NCBI GenBank assembly: GCA_026388255.1
Contig: JAPLKC010000023.1
Span: 1 to 51,442, forward strand
DNA from: Pseudomonadota bacterium
GTDB lineage: Bacteria > Desulfobacterota > Syntrophorhabdia > Syntrophorhabdales > Syntrophorhabdaceae
Reading direction: 5' to 3'
Length of the DNA stretch: 51,442 nt
Made by a program: the position numbers and the translations under genes
Shown: piece after piece, positions 21,822 through 28,443 of the stretch
How the letters are laid out: every line of letters begins with the position of its first letter
Position numbering within the stretch: position 1 is the first letter of the stretch
The notes under the pieces: generated by a model
The model's input: the letters and a program-made list of their open reading frames with translations, nothing else
Database searches by the model: none
What the model was told of the DNA's origin: nothing

Positions 21822-22964
21822 CTATAATATTCTTTTTAATACTGCTTCCCCAAACTCCGAGCATTTAACCGGTTTTACCCCTTTAATCTGCCGTGCAAGG
21901 TCATAGGTCATAATCCCGCTCCTTATTGTCTCCTCTATTGCCTCTTTCAGCACTTGCGCTGCTTTATCAAGGCCCATATATTCAAACATCATTGATCCTG
22001 AAAGCAAAAAAGAGGTAGGGTTAACCATATCTTTCCCAGCATATTTCGGGGCACTTCCATGCGTCGGTTCAAAAATTGCCACATCATCACCAATATTTGC
22101 CCCTGGAGCAACACCTAACCCCCCTATCAGTGCTGCGCAAGCATCGGAAAGATAATCGCCGTTAAGATTGGGACACAAAAGGATATCATAATCTTCGGGT
22201 TTCATTATCACCTGCATGAACATATTATCGGCAATTCTGTCGTTAAAGGATATTTTGTCTTTTTCCATATCAAATGTAATAAAATCTTCAAAATCCTTTG
22301 CAGCATCATAGGCCCATTCTCTGAAGGCCCCTTCCGTATATTTCATGATATTACCTTTGTGGACAACGGTGATCATTTTTCTTTTATTTTTTATTGCATA
22401 GTTTATTGCCCATTTTGTAAATCTTATTGTTTTATCCTTACTTATCGGCTTAACCCCTACCCCGGCATCATCCGGTATTGTTACACCCATCTTATCCTTC
22501 AAAAATTTTATAAAGGTCTTTGCTTCTTTTGAACCTTCCTTCCATTCAATACCTCTATAAATATCTTCAGTATTTTCTCTGAAAATAATAATATCAACCT
22601 TCTCAGGCATTTTTAAAGGGCTTGGCAAACCCTTAAAATACCTTACAGGCCTTATACAAACATAGAGATCTAAAACCTGTCTTAAATAGACATTTAAGCT
22701 TCTAAACCCTCCACCGACAGGCGTAGTCAGGGGACCTTTTATGCCTATTCGGTATTGCTTTATGATCTCCAAAGTCTCTTGCGGAAGTAATGATCCGGCA
22801 CATTCAAGAGCTTTCTGCCCTGCAAGCACCTCAATCCATTCAATCCTCTTTTCAGCGCTATATGCCTTTATGACAGCTTCTTCCAACACCTCTCTCGAAG
22901 CTTTCCAAATGTCCTCACCGGCACCGTCGCCTGACAAATAAGGAATTTCAATTTTTTTGCTCAA
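21822..22964 (-). CDS. icd: Isocitrate dehydrogenase, NADP-type
   Basis: 380 residues of the isocitrate/isopropylmalate dehydrogenase family. Substrate-side motifs are GPLTTPVGGG and RSLNVYLRQ near residues 75-95 and FRENTEDIYRG near 128. The NADP-specificity signature HGSAPKYAGKDMVNP lies near residues 305-320, where Lys-Tyr matches the NADP enzymes rather than NAD-type or LeuB. It converts isocitrate to 2-oxoglutarate and CO2. It sits 57 bp after the aconitase-like small subunit and downstream of a citrate synthase, completing a route to glutamate. Confidence 0.9.
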   Translation of the reverse strand: MSKKIEIPYLSGDGAGEDIWKASREVLEEAVIKAYSAEKRIEWIEVLAGQKALECAGSLLPQETLEIIKQYRIGIKGPLTTPVGGGFRSLNVYLRQVLDLYVCIRPVRYFKGLPSPLKMPEKVDIIIFRENTEDIYRGIEWKEGSKEAKTFIKFLKDKMGVTIPDDAGVGVKPISKDKTIRFTKWAINYAIKNKRKMITVVHKGNIMKYTEGAFREWAYDAAKDFEDFITFDMEKDKISFNDRIADNMFMQVIMKPEDYDILLCPNLNGDYLSDACAALIGGLGVAPGANIGDDVAIFEPTHGSAPKYAGKDMVNPTSFLLSGSMMFEYMGLDKAAQVLKEAIEETIRSGIMTYDLARQIKGVKPVKCSEFGEAVLKRIL

Positions 22965-23021: not shown

Positions 23022-23519
23022 TTAGACCGCCAGTTTTTTATTTTTAATAATATATTTATCAAGGCCACCTTCTTTAAGAATATCCCTCATTATCGAAGGA
23101 AGTCTGGAGAAGCATCTCTGAATACCATTTGCTCTATTAAATATTACACCTTCATCCATATCAATCTCAAGCGTAGCCCCTTCATTTATGCCGTCAACAT
23201 CGCATATTATTGCTGCAAGTCCTACATTGATAGCATTTCTGTAAAATATTCTCGCAAATGAACTCGCAACTATCGCGTCAATTCCTGCCATTTTAATAAT
23301 CAAAGGTGCATGTTCCCTGCTTGAACCGAGCCCGAAATTTCTTCCACCTACCACAATGTCTCCTTTGTTTACCTTTTTATGAAAATCAGGCATAACATCA
23401 TCAAAGACATGTTTTTTTAATTCTTCCAGATTGGACCTTAAATGATAAAATCTACCCGGTATTATATGGTCAGTAGAGATGTTATCTCCAAATCTCCACA
23501 CCCTTCCTTTTAAAATCAT
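23022..23519 (-). CDS. Aconitase-family hydratase, small (swivel) subunit, LeuD/HacB type
   Basis: 165 residues from the ATG at 23519, which has AGGGAGG 6 bp upstream; the TTG just before it is less likely. Family motifs are [15 protein letters not shown] at the N-terminus, [17 protein letters not shown] near 65-80 and [17 protein letters not shown] near 95. The substrate-specificity loop after IPGR reads FYHLR, unlike the usual YLRT of isopropylmalate isomerases or YLVY of homoaconitases, so substrate cannot be read off. The gene overlaps the large subunit by 38 bp. Context with citrate synthase and isocitrate dehydrogenase suggests aconitase activity. Confidence 0.88.
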
Positions 23520-24777
23520 CAAAAACCTCCCTGGGGTCCGTCAGCTTTCCTTTCAATGCACTTGCTGCCGCAGTGGCCGGTGAAGCAAGCACGATACCTG
23601 AATTAGGGTTTCCCATTCTGCCTAAAAAATTTCTGTTTGAAGTCGAAATACAAACCTCTCCGTCACCCAGGACACCCTGGTGGAGGCCTATACATGGCCC
23701 GCATCCGGGCGGCAAAATCGTTGCACCGGCTTCAAAAAGTGTTGTAAGTATACCTTCCTGTAAAGCTTGATAGTAAATCATTCTCGAAGCAGGGGCCACC
23801 AAAAGCCTCACATCTTTATATTTTTTTCTGCCTTTCAGAATTAATGATGCTATCCGCAAATCTTCTATTCTCCCGTTTGTACATGAACCGATAAAAACCT
23901 GGTTGACATTTATTGCCTTTACTTGTTTATCTTCTATGCTTCTCGTGTTATCAACTTCATGTGGAAGACTTACCATTGGCGCTAAATGTCCTAAATCAAT
24001 TTCAATTATTTTTTCATAATGTGCTTTATCATCAGGCAGTATTTCAATATACTGCTTTTCTCTCCTCATTTTTTTAAGATAAAGGAATGTCATAATATCT
24101 GAAGGAAAAAGTCCACATTTCGCCCCTGCTTCTACTGCCATATTGGCAATGGTCATTCTTTCTTCTACATCGAGATGGAATAATGTTTCTCCCGTAAACT
24201 CCATGGATTTGTAAGTAGCACCATCTGCACCAATCATGCCGATAATTTTTAAAATTAAATCCTTTGTAAAAACACCTGAAGGAAATTCCCCATCAATATC
24301 AAATTTAATTGTTTCCGGAATCCTCAGCCAGGTCTTCCCAAGTCCCATAGCAACAGCAATATCCGTTGATCCCATACCGGTTGAAAAAGCCCCAAGGGCT
24401 CCTCCGGTACATGTATGCGAATCTGCGCCGAGCAGTACTTCAGATGGGGACAATACACGTTCCATCATAATCTGATGACATATGCCATCACCAACATCAT
24501 ACAAATTGGCACCATATGCTTGCGCAAATTCTTTTATCGTTATGTGGTCATTTGAAAGCTCCATTCTTGAACTCGGGGATGCATGGTCAATAAAAAAATT
24601 GATCCTGCTGCCGTCAAAAAGCTTTTTAAATCCCATCTCCTTAAATTTTTTTATGGCAAGTGGGGCAGTCCCATCCTGCAGGAGTATTCTGTCAACATTC
24701 GCAATCGCATAATCTCCCTTTATTACATCTGTTCCTGTATTCATACTCAATATTTTTTCGACTATTGTCTTACCCAT
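23482..24777 (-). CDS. Aconitase-family hydratase, large subunit, LeuC/HacA type
   Basis: 431 residues. The [4Fe-4S] ligands are the Cys in GSCTNGR (near residue 300) and the two in GCGPCIG (near residue 360). The substrate-site stretch is [16 protein letters not shown] near 115-130. Together with the small subunit it forms an oxygen-sensitive hydro-lyase that isomerises a 2-hydroxy tricarboxylate or isopropylmalate. It starts 4 bp after the citrate synthase homologue ends, so the two are tightly coupled; I infer citrate/isocitrate as substrate. No leuA or leuB lies nearby. Confidence 0.88.
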
Positions 24778-24781
24778 TTGT

Positions 24782-26590
24782 TTATTCCCCGGCCTTTGTC
24801 AAATCTTCAAATCTGATATCAAGACCCAATATGCCTATTATATCCCCGAACTCATCTCTAATAGGTCCAGAAACGGTTACACAAAGAGCGCCGGTAATTT
24901 TTGATGAATATATATCCGTTACACTAATCTTTCCTGTTTTCATGGGATTTATAAACCAGTCCCTATCTGAAAAATCCTCATGCAAACCTATTTTGGAGTA
25001 TTTGGCTCTGTCTACCACCTGTGTGATATTTCTTGTAATTTTAATGCCTTCACTGTTAACAGTATATGCAAACTGTATATAGGGATATTCCTCAACAATA
25101 TTTTTTAATGCATTCTCTTGTTGTAACGGCGCCATGCTCTTTATATCAATATTTTCAATATATTTTTCTATTAAATGCGCCGCCATGTCATGAGCTTTTT
25201 TCTTCAAAAGCTCGAATTCAGACATAAATATTTCGGGCATATACCTTCTGACAGCATGCTCCATCTCATCATCCGACATAGAGGTTACTCTTCCTTCATC
25301 ATACTGCTTGATTATCCTTTTGTTAATCTTCGCTACTCCAGGATGTGTCTTTTCTACCCTATCTTTTCCAACCAGTGCAAAATGCGAGCTTATCCAGTGC
25401 GCAATTCCCGCGAGACCTGACTTATCGGTTATATTAACGGTTATTGGCCTGTCGAGAAGCTTGTTTGTGTCAAAAGATGAGTATATCTCTTCATTTTTCA
25501 ATAAACCGTCTATATGTACACCTGCTGATGTTGCATTAAAATCAAGTCCTACTAAGGGCTGGGTCCTCGGTATGTGATAGCCCAATTCTTTTTCAAAATA
25601 GTTCCTGATCTCCGTAATTACCTTAGTATCAACACCATTCTCTTCACCTGTAAGAGATATATATTCCATTATAAGTCCTTCAATAGGGGCATTACCGGTC
25701 CTCTCCCCTATACCGAGCAATGTTCCATTTACATATGAACAGCCATAAAGCCATGCGCTCACACTATTTATAATAACTTTGTTAAAATCATTATGACCGT
25801 GCCATTCAAGATACTCTGAAGGAACCCCGGCATCATCAATCATAGCCCTGATAATTTTTCCCATAGACCGCGGAAGTGCTGCACCAGGATACGTAATGCC
25901 AATCCCGAGAGTATCACAGAGCCTTATCTTTACCGGTATCTTTGCCTCTTCCGACATATTAACTAGGGCTTGTGCAAAGGGAACGCAGAAACCATATATG
26001 TCGGCCCTTGTTATATCCTCAAAATGACACCTCGGAATTATGCCGTGTTCAAGAGTGCTTTCTACAATCTTTACATAGTCTTTAAAAACCTGTGAGCGCG
26101 TTTTCTTTAATTTCATGAATATATGATAATCAGAAGCACTTGTAAGTATGCCTGTCTCTTTTAGTCCCAGATCTTTTACAAGCTGTAAGTCCTCTTTTAC
26201 AGCTCTTATCCAGCCGGTAATTTCTGGATAACGGTAGCCTTTGTCAAGACATCTTACAACGGCATCTTTATCTTTATCGCCATAAAGGAAAAACTCGCTT
26301 TGTCTTATCACACCGTTCGCTCCGCCGAGCCTATGCAAAAAATCAAAAAGGTCTTCAATCTGCTTTGCCGTAAAAGGCGGCCTGGATTGCTGACCGTCTC
26401 TGAATGTTGTATCCGTAATAAATATATCATCAGGGGGGTCGATGAGTTCGATCTTGTGGTCAAATTTTACTTTGCACATTTCCGTATACGGAAAAACATC
26501 CCTGAAAAGCTCAGGAATTTCAACGTCTATCAAAGGATATTTCGTACCTCTGGCAACATTTTTAAATATAAAGCCTTTCTTCTTTTTCAA
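24782..26590 (-). CDS. Re-citrate synthase homologue (DRE-TIM) with C-terminal Cache-like domain
   Basis: 602 residues. The N-terminal DRE-TIM barrel (about 50-340) has [14 protein letters not shown] (metal and base residues, 60-72), [11 protein letters not shown], and the metal-binding HGHND near 265. This motif set is that of Re-citrate synthases rather than LeuA or ordinary homocitrate synthase, and there is no LeuA regulatory domain. Residues about 480-602 look like a PDC/Cache sensor fold ([39 protein letters not shown]). C. kluyveri Re-citrate synthase is about 450 residues, so this is an extra domain. It would make citrate from oxaloacetate and acetyl-CoA. It is 4 bp before the aconitase-like pair. 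Homocitrate synthase is the alternative. Confidence 0.82.
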
Positions 26591-26676
26591 GGAAACCTCC
26601 TTATTTGTTCACAATTACGTTTCACGGTAAAAAATCGATATATAGCTTGCAGCAAAACTGTGAACTGAAAACATTA

Positions 26677-28443
26677 TTATGTTGATTCGACCGTTACCTT
26701 TATTTTCAATTCATTCAATTGTCTTTGTGCAACCCTTGATGGAGCGCCGGTTAGGGGACATGTTCCCTTCTGTGTCTTCGGGAAAGGTATAACCTCCCTG
26801 ATGCTGTCAAGTTTCAAAAACATCATGATTATTCTGTCAAAACCGAAGGCAATGCCGCCATGCGGAGGCGCGCCCATCTCCAGGGCCTCAAGTAAAAATC
26901 CAAATTTCTCAAACGCTTCTTCTTCTTTAATACCAAGAAGTTTAAACATCTCCATCTGCTCATCTGTGCTGTATATACGTATGCTTCCGCCTCCAAGCTC
27001 CACACCGTTTAGAACAAGGTCGTAAGCCTTTGCTTTAATAGAATCATAGTCCCCCTCGAAATCTTTTATCTTCCCCTGAGGAGACGTAAAGGGATGGTGT
27101 CGCGCAACATACCTTTTGTCTTCTTCACTGTATTCAAGAAGTGGGAAGTCTACTACCCACAAGAACCTGAATTCATCCTTACGGATCAGTCCATATTTCT
27201 CGCCAAGATATAGCCTTAACCTTCCCATAAGTTCATTCACTTTATCTCGTTTATCACTCATAATAAAAATTACATCGCCATTTTCAACACCAAGTTTTTC
27301 TTCTAAAAAAGTTTTTTCATCTTCGCTTAAATATTTGACCGTAGGTGACTGCAAAACATTATTTTCCTTGCGAATCCAGATAAGACCGCCCGCCCCGATT
27401 TCTTTTGCAACGTCAACAGCAGTATCAAGATCCTTCCTTGACAGGGTCTTGCCTTTAAATATAAGGGCCTTGATCTCACCATTATTTTCTATGGTCTTTT
27501 TAAAAACCCCGAAACCGGTCTGTCTAAAAATATCGGTCAAATTTACCATGGTCAGTTCAAACCGTAAATCAGGTTTATCCGAACCATATAGATTCATTGC
27601 TTCATTGTATGTCATCCTCATAAACGGGGTTTCTATCATCTCGCCTCTTAAGGCTTCATAAAGGGCGCTAATCAGTCCCTCGCCCATACTGATCACATCA
27701 TCTACATCCACAAAGCTCATCTCAACATCAATCTGGGTAAATTCAGGCTGTCTGTCTGCCCGCAAATCTTCATCCCTGAAACACCTTGCAATCTGGAAAT
27801 ACCTGTCAAATCCGGCTATCATCAAAATCTGCTTGTAAAGCTGGGGAGACTGGGGTAAAGCATAGAACATGCCCTGATTCAGACGGCTAGGGACAATAAA
27901 ATCCCTGGCGCCTTCCGGTGTACTCTTCGTAAAAAACGGTGTTTCGAACTCATGAAAACCATTCGATACAAAATAATCCCTTGTAACCTTATATGCACGA
28001 CTCCTGTCAACAAATATCTTCTGAATCTCGGGTCTTCTCATGTCAAGGTATCGGTACTTCAATCTAAGGGATTCGTTTGTCTCTTCATCATCAAGTTGAA
28101 AAGGCAGCGTTTTACAAGTATTTAAAATCTCAAAGGTCTCCACCAGGACTTCTACTTTGCCGGTGGGAATATTTTGATTTTCTGTCTCTTCAGGTCTTTT
28201 CGCAACCCTGCCCTTGACACTAATGACATACTCCTGCTTTATATTTCCTGCCTTTTGATGGGCATCTACAGATATATCAGGAGAAAAAACTACCTGAACA
28301 ATTCCTGTTACATCTCTTAAATCTACAAAAATCAGACTACCGTGGTCTCTTCTCCTGTATACCCACCCTGACAGGTGTAGCGTCTTCCCTATATCTTCGC
28401 TTTTAATTAAACCACAATAAATATCTCTCACTTGAACCTCCAT
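26677..28443 (-). CDS. aspS: Aspartyl-tRNA synthetase, bacterial type
   Basis: 588 residues. An N-terminal OB-fold anticodon domain (LSGWVYRRRDHGSLIFVDLRD) is followed by class II motif 2 (FRDEDLRADRQPEFTQID, near 215-235), the bacterial GAD insertion (about 300-400), and motif 3 (GGIAFGFDRI, near 533). It charges tRNA-Asp; whether it also mischarges tRNA-Asn cannot be judged here. It is the first gene of the long - strand block, with divergent transcription on the other side of a 272-bp intergenic region. The 86 bp downstream of it hold no visible feature. Confidence 0.97.
   Translation of the reverse strand: MEVQVRDIYCGLIKSEDIGKTLHLSGWVYRRRDHGSLIFVDLRDVTGIVQVVFSPDISVDAHQKAGNIKQEYVISVKGRVAKRPEETENQNIPTGKVEVLVETFEILNTCKTLPFQLDDEETNESLRLKYRYLDMRRPEIQKIFVDRSRAYKVTRDYFVSNGFHEFETPFFTKSTPEGARDFIVPSRLNQGMFYALPQSPQLYKQILMIAGFDRYFQIARCFRDEDLRADRQPEFTQIDVEMSFVDVDDVISMGEGLISALYEALRGEMIETPFMRMTYNEAMNLYGSDKPDLRFELTMVNLTDIFRQTGFGVFKKTIENNGEIKALIFKGKTLSRKDLDTAVDVAKEIGAGGLIWIRKENNVLQSPTVKYLSEDEKTFLEEKLGVENGDVIFIMSDKRDKVNELMGRLRLYLGEKYGLIRKDEFRFLWVVDFPLLEYSEEDKRYVARHHPFTSPQGKIKDFEGDYDSIKAKAYDLVLNGVELGGGSIRIYSTDEQMEMFKLLGIKEEEAFEKFGFLLEALEMGAPPHGGIAFGFDRIIMMFLKLDSIREVIPFPKTQKGTCPLTGAPSRVAQRQLNELKIKVTVEST

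Follow-up and report, generated by a model that had tools for sequence, protein, structure and literature searches.

A predicted Re-citrate synthase of Syntrophorhabdaceae with a Cache domain, a candidate metabolite sensor, at its C-terminus

The window analysed here is a 51,442 nucleotide stretch of a Syntrophorhabdaceae genome (Desulfobacterota; assembly GCA_026388255.1, contig JAPLKC010000023.1), and all of its features described below lie on the minus strand. An open reading frame at positions 24782–26590, with a ribosome-binding site (AGGAGG, 26596–26601) ahead of its TTG start, encodes a 602 amino acid homolog of Re-citrate synthase that ends in a Cache domain, an assignment that draws on the reading frame, Pfam matches and distribution. 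The next gene of the operon (23482–24777) encodes an aconitase/homoaconitase-family large subunit (TIGR01343, 2.1e-170), and beyond it lie genes for an aconitase-family small subunit (23022–23522; TIGR02087) and an NADP-type isocitrate dehydrogenase (21822–22964; TIGR00183, 2.1e-165, with NF005425 also over its cut-off). The two aconitase subunit frames overlap by 41 bases (23482–23522) provided that the small subunit does begin at its TTG; a later start would shorten the overlap. Upstream is an aspartyl-tRNA synthetase gene, aspS (26677–28443; read from the sequence), which is a recurrent neighbor. It lies directly upstream and on the same strand in 92 of 141 loci whose Re-citrate synthase carries the Cache tail, mostly from Desulfobacterota, and in none of 18 tail-less loci, a contrast that is confounded by lineage; many tailed loci outside Desulfobacterota have no adjoining aspS. 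Aspartate derives from oxaloacetate, which is a substrate of Re-citrate synthase. Another TCA cycle gene order is seen with a tail-less Re-citrate synthase of genome G059 (L161 2013–4310), which is directly followed by an apparent malate dehydrogenase gene and, after that, by one for a fumarase subunit.

In a Pfam search with the 602 amino acid protein, residues 57–330 (25601–26422) match the HMGL-like family PF00682 (1.2e-30) and should form the DRE-TIM catalytic barrel. The His-Gly-His sequence at residues 264–266 (25793–25801) is predicted to bind metal together with D65 and N300; D65, H264, H266 and N300 are invariant in the 62 rows of the homolog alignment, and their metal-binding role is presumed by analogy with LeuA and homocitrate synthase. 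The top structure matches of a model of the whole protein are homocitrate synthase and isopropylmalate synthases, and no NCBI equivalog model attains its own cut-off against the 602 amino acid protein. The protein is 60% identical over residues 14–600 to a protein of Syntrophus aciditrophicus, the sole match in that genome. Si-citrate synthase (PF00285) was not found in the host genome, a 98% complete assembly, and the same search found it in 13 of 14 control genomes; the tailed enzyme is thus the only recognisable citrate synthase there. By orthology, predicted active-site residues and operon, which is to say by every test short of an assay, the protein appears to be a Re-citrate synthase of the HMGL type, citrate being its predicted product and Re its predicted stereochemistry. 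The preliminary description, made from the letters of the DNA, had called it a Re-citrate synthase homolog, and the S. aciditrophicus match, the aconitase and isocitrate dehydrogenase operon and the lack of a Si-citrate synthase bear this out.

A helical linker (residues 440–487; 25130–25273, from the secondary structure of the model) joins the catalytic part to the C-terminal tail, and residues 488–599 or thereabouts (24794–25129) are, by profile and model, a Cache domain fused to the synthase. In Pfam, residues 495–599 match MCP-like_PDC_1 (PF22673) at 2.4e-14 (54 bits vs. a cut-off of 27), and residues 479–598 match dCache_1 at 3.7e-10, under the family cut-off. The assignment is not due to chance, since PF22673 is matched by all 62 diverse aligned homologs (E up to 0.001) and dCache_1 by 61 of them. 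The Cache structure of Tlp3 is recovered by sequence alone (2.8e-6), while a profile built from the tails of 62 homologs recovers Tlp3, KinD, PctA, PctC and YkuI (1e-10 to 4e-4). An AlphaFold2 model of the isolated tail (pLDDT 89.7, pTM 0.82) displays the Cache layout, a long N-terminal helix and an antiparallel sheet; Foldseek ranks KinD (E about 1e-8), Tlp3 and YkuI highest, its VIA-align Z is about 16 against both WalK and KinD, and it also matches the Cache structures of CitA and DctB. The PDC/Cache pattern that the preliminary description had read in the tail is upheld by the PF22673 match and by this confident model. The motifs it had listed (WF.NP, TG..CVTVS.PI and GIIGILG.DI) do occur, at conserved columns of the alignment, and the structure prediction and Foldseek search that it had suggested for the tail return Cache structures, with KinD best.

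Hydropathy analysis of the whole protein found no transmembrane segment (maximum 19-residue Kyte-Doolittle mean 1.08). As no segment approaches a transmembrane helix, the Cache domain should be cytoplasmic, in agreement with the cytoplasmic enzyme originally described, and the tailed enzyme lacks the usual setting of such domains, which is extracytoplasmic and between transmembrane helices. Three other accounts of the tail were considered and rejected: hydropathy rules out a transmembrane topology, a LeuA_dimer, RAM or ACT identity is ruled out because none of these has a Pfam match in the 602 amino acid protein, and an assembly artefact that joined two neighbors is ruled out by the same fusion in well over a hundred genomes.

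Among 297 genomes drawn evenly from the phylum, 145 have the enzyme; two of these are cut at contig ends, and 139 of the 143 that can be judged have the Cache tail (the four tail-less genomes are G059, G348, G520 and G598). Among the best 80 genome contigs, tailed homologs are also present in Nitrospirota, Spirochaetota, Omnitrophota, Elusimicrobiota, Lentisphaerota, Fibrobacterota, Armatimonadota, Margulisbacteria and Auribacterota, which places the tailed enzyme in at least nine phyla beyond its own. The Brocadiaceae homologs among these best 80 contigs are tail-less and 61–63% identical over residues 18–458, and in Planctomycetota the tail was seen in none of 12 genomes with the enzyme, one match being only partial. 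The tailed form is the usual form of Re-citrate synthase in the phylum and is found in many other phyla. Since some lineages have tail-less versions of the same enzyme, the tail should be dispensable for catalysis. In a quickly built tree of the catalytic region, tentative in its deep branches and drawn from phyla other than Firmicutes, tail presence and absence require at least four changes, with tail-less groups interspersed among tailed ones; the distribution is most simply, if tentatively, read as a fusion of long standing that was lost several times. Core and tail distances are correlated (Mantel r 0.72), which indicates that both parts evolved together, and the tail is overall the faster evolving of the two (mean distance 0.58 vs. 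0.39).

In 118 genomes of the phylum, the same Cache subtype occurs outside Re-citrate synthase mainly at the C-terminus of MCP-signal proteins, for example L165 1986–3608 (minus strand), L166 589–1905 (plus), L167 634–1917 (plus) and L168 1432–2847 (minus). Most of the MCP-signal proteins with this Cache are apparently soluble; the MCP set shares the R-x-W-F, Y-x-S and D residues discussed below, and the four listed are likely sensors of an internal metabolite. One EAL protein (L170 1452–2717, plus strand) also has this subtype as a YkuI-like C-terminal Cache, which is matched by the tail profile; Pfam finds the EAL domain alone. Because these closest free relatives are MCP proteins, mostly of apparently soluble type, and EAL proteins, and because YkuI_C is one of only two principally intracellular Cache families, the other being Diacid_rec (PMC4822843), the tail was probably taken from a cytosolic signaling protein and not from an outside-facing receptor.

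The most conserved residues in about 130 tails are G515, R543, W545, F546, Y561, S563, T566, L569, T572 and D591. R543, W545, F546, Y561 and D591 align with PctA R126, W128, Y129, Y144 and D173, and the pocket R, W, F, Y and D positions are conserved far above random tail positions (P = 3e-5). Pocket residues were assigned from alignments and not from distances in the model. R543-x-W545-F546 (24953–24964) is a predicted carboxylate clamp, from conservation and from alignment to PctA and KinD. Y561-x-S563 (24902–24910) aligns with Y144 and D146 of PctA and with YSS of KinD, and D591 (24818–24820) is the predicted contact for a ligand amino group; S563 and D591 are each present in 130 of 130 tails. 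The roles of the amino-acid motif residues, including the Arg that binds the ligand carboxylate, have been described (PMC10104139). Five of the six positions of that motif (Y, R, W, Y, Y, D) are conserved in the tail, with Y129 present as Phe; the position of PctA Y121 is a variable E538 (entropy 3.1 bits). In addition, the position of PctA D146 is an invariant Ser in the tails, as in the Y-S-S-x-I-T-G of KinD. The tail falls outside the strict definition of the universal amino acid sensor dCache_1AA, with its Y121 position unconserved and a single Cache domain after which the protein ends, but in the alignments a works-like resemblance to such a sensor remains. Sharing the PctA motif residues and the KinD Ser, the pocket appears to stand between a site for carboxylates and one for amino acids. 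Its conservation favors an amino acid or a small carboxylate as the ligand, the class best supported by these residues and close to the amino acid or dicarboxylate named as examples in the preliminary description, and selection on the pocket argues for ligand binding and against a mere spacer.

The enzyme would catalyze a metal-dependent Claisen condensation of acetyl-CoA and oxaloacetate to citrate, and with this step an anaerobe that has no Si-citrate synthase would enter the oxidative route toward 2-oxoglutarate and glutamate. The single intracellular Cache domain occupies the C-terminal place that the leucine-binding regulatory domain has in isopropylmalate synthase, and it would most likely bind a small cytosolic metabolite, its carboxylate through R543 and W545 and probably an amino or hydroxyl group through D591; glutamate, glutamine, aspartate or a short carboxylate are plausible ligands. 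The ligand-bound Cache would then act through the helical linker on catalysis or assembly. From the sequence we infer ligand binding, ligand class, control and its direction. We give a probability of roughly 0.55 to the view that citrate formation is under the allosteric control of a small metabolite with a carboxylate, a pathway-linked amino acid being the most plausible one; through the tail, such a metabolite could probably switch the enzyme directly. A sensor is supported by the fold, the fusion and its wide retention, the co-divergence of core and tail and the conservation of the pocket; the missing Y121 equivalent, the Ser in place of D146, the tail-less lineages and the reported effector-free activity of the S. 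aciditrophicus enzyme weaken the case for one. The broader suggestion, that the citrate synthase of glutamate biosynthesis is feedback-controlled by an amino-acid-binding intracellular Cache across much of the anaerobic bacteria, is tentative and somewhat against the odds.

A sub-case of the sensor reading has the tail sense a keto acid or short carboxylate (pyruvate-like, as KinD), giving feed-forward control by the carbon supply rather than amino-acid feedback. KinD heads the Foldseek matches and has the R and the Y-S-S-x-I-T-G in common with the tail, and its structure 4jgp contains pyruvate; however, the invariant D591, for which KinD has no counterpart, points to a ligand that bears an amino or hydroxyl group. 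The keto-acid reading is possible but on the doubtful side. It is rather unlikely that the Cache domain is instead an assembly module, one that makes the enzyme dimerize or tetramerize without binding a regulatory ligand. Dimers are frequent among Cache and PAS folds, the tail model has the long N-terminal helix that is usual in dimeric Cache domains, the enzyme of S. aciditrophicus is reportedly a homotetramer and the tail evolves faster than the core, but tail-less homologs exist and conservation is highest at the pocket residues, not on surface helices. An alternative role for those residues could be to hold a structural ion or to pack against an interface. The idea that the tail is a vestigial sensor without present function draws on its absence from several lineages and the few (4) tree changes needed, and is made very improbable by its persistence in some ten phyla, where the pocket residues do not vary. 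Just as improbably, the tail might attach the enzyme to a partner such as the neighboring aconitase or aspartyl-tRNA synthetase, as the conserved neighborhood (92 of 141 tailed loci with aspS ahead of the synthase gene) might suggest, but gene neighborhood is not interaction, lineage confounds the aspS count and many tailed loci outside Desulfobacterota have no aspS beside them.

If the tail is indeed an amino-acid-binding allosteric sensor, a chemoreceptor sensor would have been reused as an allosteric site, and Cache would be a third regulatory module type of the synthase superfamily, beside LeuA_dimer and RAM. A census of Cache domains gave signal-transduction outputs alone, SMP_2 excepted (PMC4822843); Cache as a standard part of a central biosynthetic enzyme points to a wider role for such sensors. 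The tail also offers a concrete account of how carbon entry into glutamate synthesis may be controlled in anaerobes that lack Si-citrate synthase. What is new here is the recognition of the module, its breadth and its pocket, the fused enzyme itself being already known, and the named pocket residues and short ligand list make the sensor question testable on a previously purified enzyme.

We take that enzyme, the 60% identical relative (L126/L172), to be Re-citrate synthase SYN_02536 of S. aciditrophicus SB. It has the same barrel, linker and Cache tail with R-x-WF, Y-x-S and D, and its locus likewise has aspS upstream (L172 8575–10350). From its ATG it is 629 amino acids long (71,766 Da) with a full Cache tail, and with Ser and a Strep-tag added its computed mass is 72,893 Da; the abstract of Kim et al. 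2013 reportedly gives 72,892 Da for S. aciditrophicus Re-citrate synthase, which they are said to have found to be a homotetramer, and the purified enzyme is said to be active without added effector. Since this enzyme is tailed, the fused form has already been isolated, and its activity as a Re-citrate synthase has been demonstrated. Kim et al. 2013 (PMID 23378508) is cited in PMC12016533. A literature search with a scope outside the primary Re-citrate synthase papers found no Cache reading of its tail, and searches on Cache with citrate synthase, or Cache fused to metabolic enzymes, gave nothing on the fusion. The early remark that no characterized fusion of this kind was known is therefore only partly right: the fusion is unnamed in the literature found, but purification and assay have been done on an enzyme with the same tail, that of S. 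aciditrophicus.

The anammox-type Re-citrate synthases (Brocadiaceae) have the same catalytic part and end directly after the helical subdomain, without a Cache domain. The Re-citrate synthase of Clostridium kluyveri is presumably tail-less as well, going by the literature. On whether the tail belongs to all characterized Re-citrate synthases, a point on which the preliminary description had let its proposal depend, the sequences compared here indicate that it does not: the S. aciditrophicus enzyme is tailed, and the anammox-type homologs of the family are not. LeuA (2-isopropylmalate synthase) and the Sulfolobus homocitrate synthase with its RAM module have a homologous HMGL barrel and a regulatory module in the same C-terminal position, where it senses the amino-acid product of the pathway; the LeuA_dimer and RAM modules, however, have folds other than Cache, and neither is in the 602 amino acid protein. 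KinD of B. subtilis, PctA and Tlp3 share the Cache fold and most of the pocket residues with the tail, but these are extracytoplasmic transmembrane double-Cache receptors with signaling outputs. The nearest free-standing relatives of the tail are YkuI and the soluble MCP-Cache proteins (L165–L168), which likewise have a C-terminal Cache without the layout of an extracellular sensor, but whose output is c-di-GMP hydrolysis or chemotaxis signaling and not biosynthesis.
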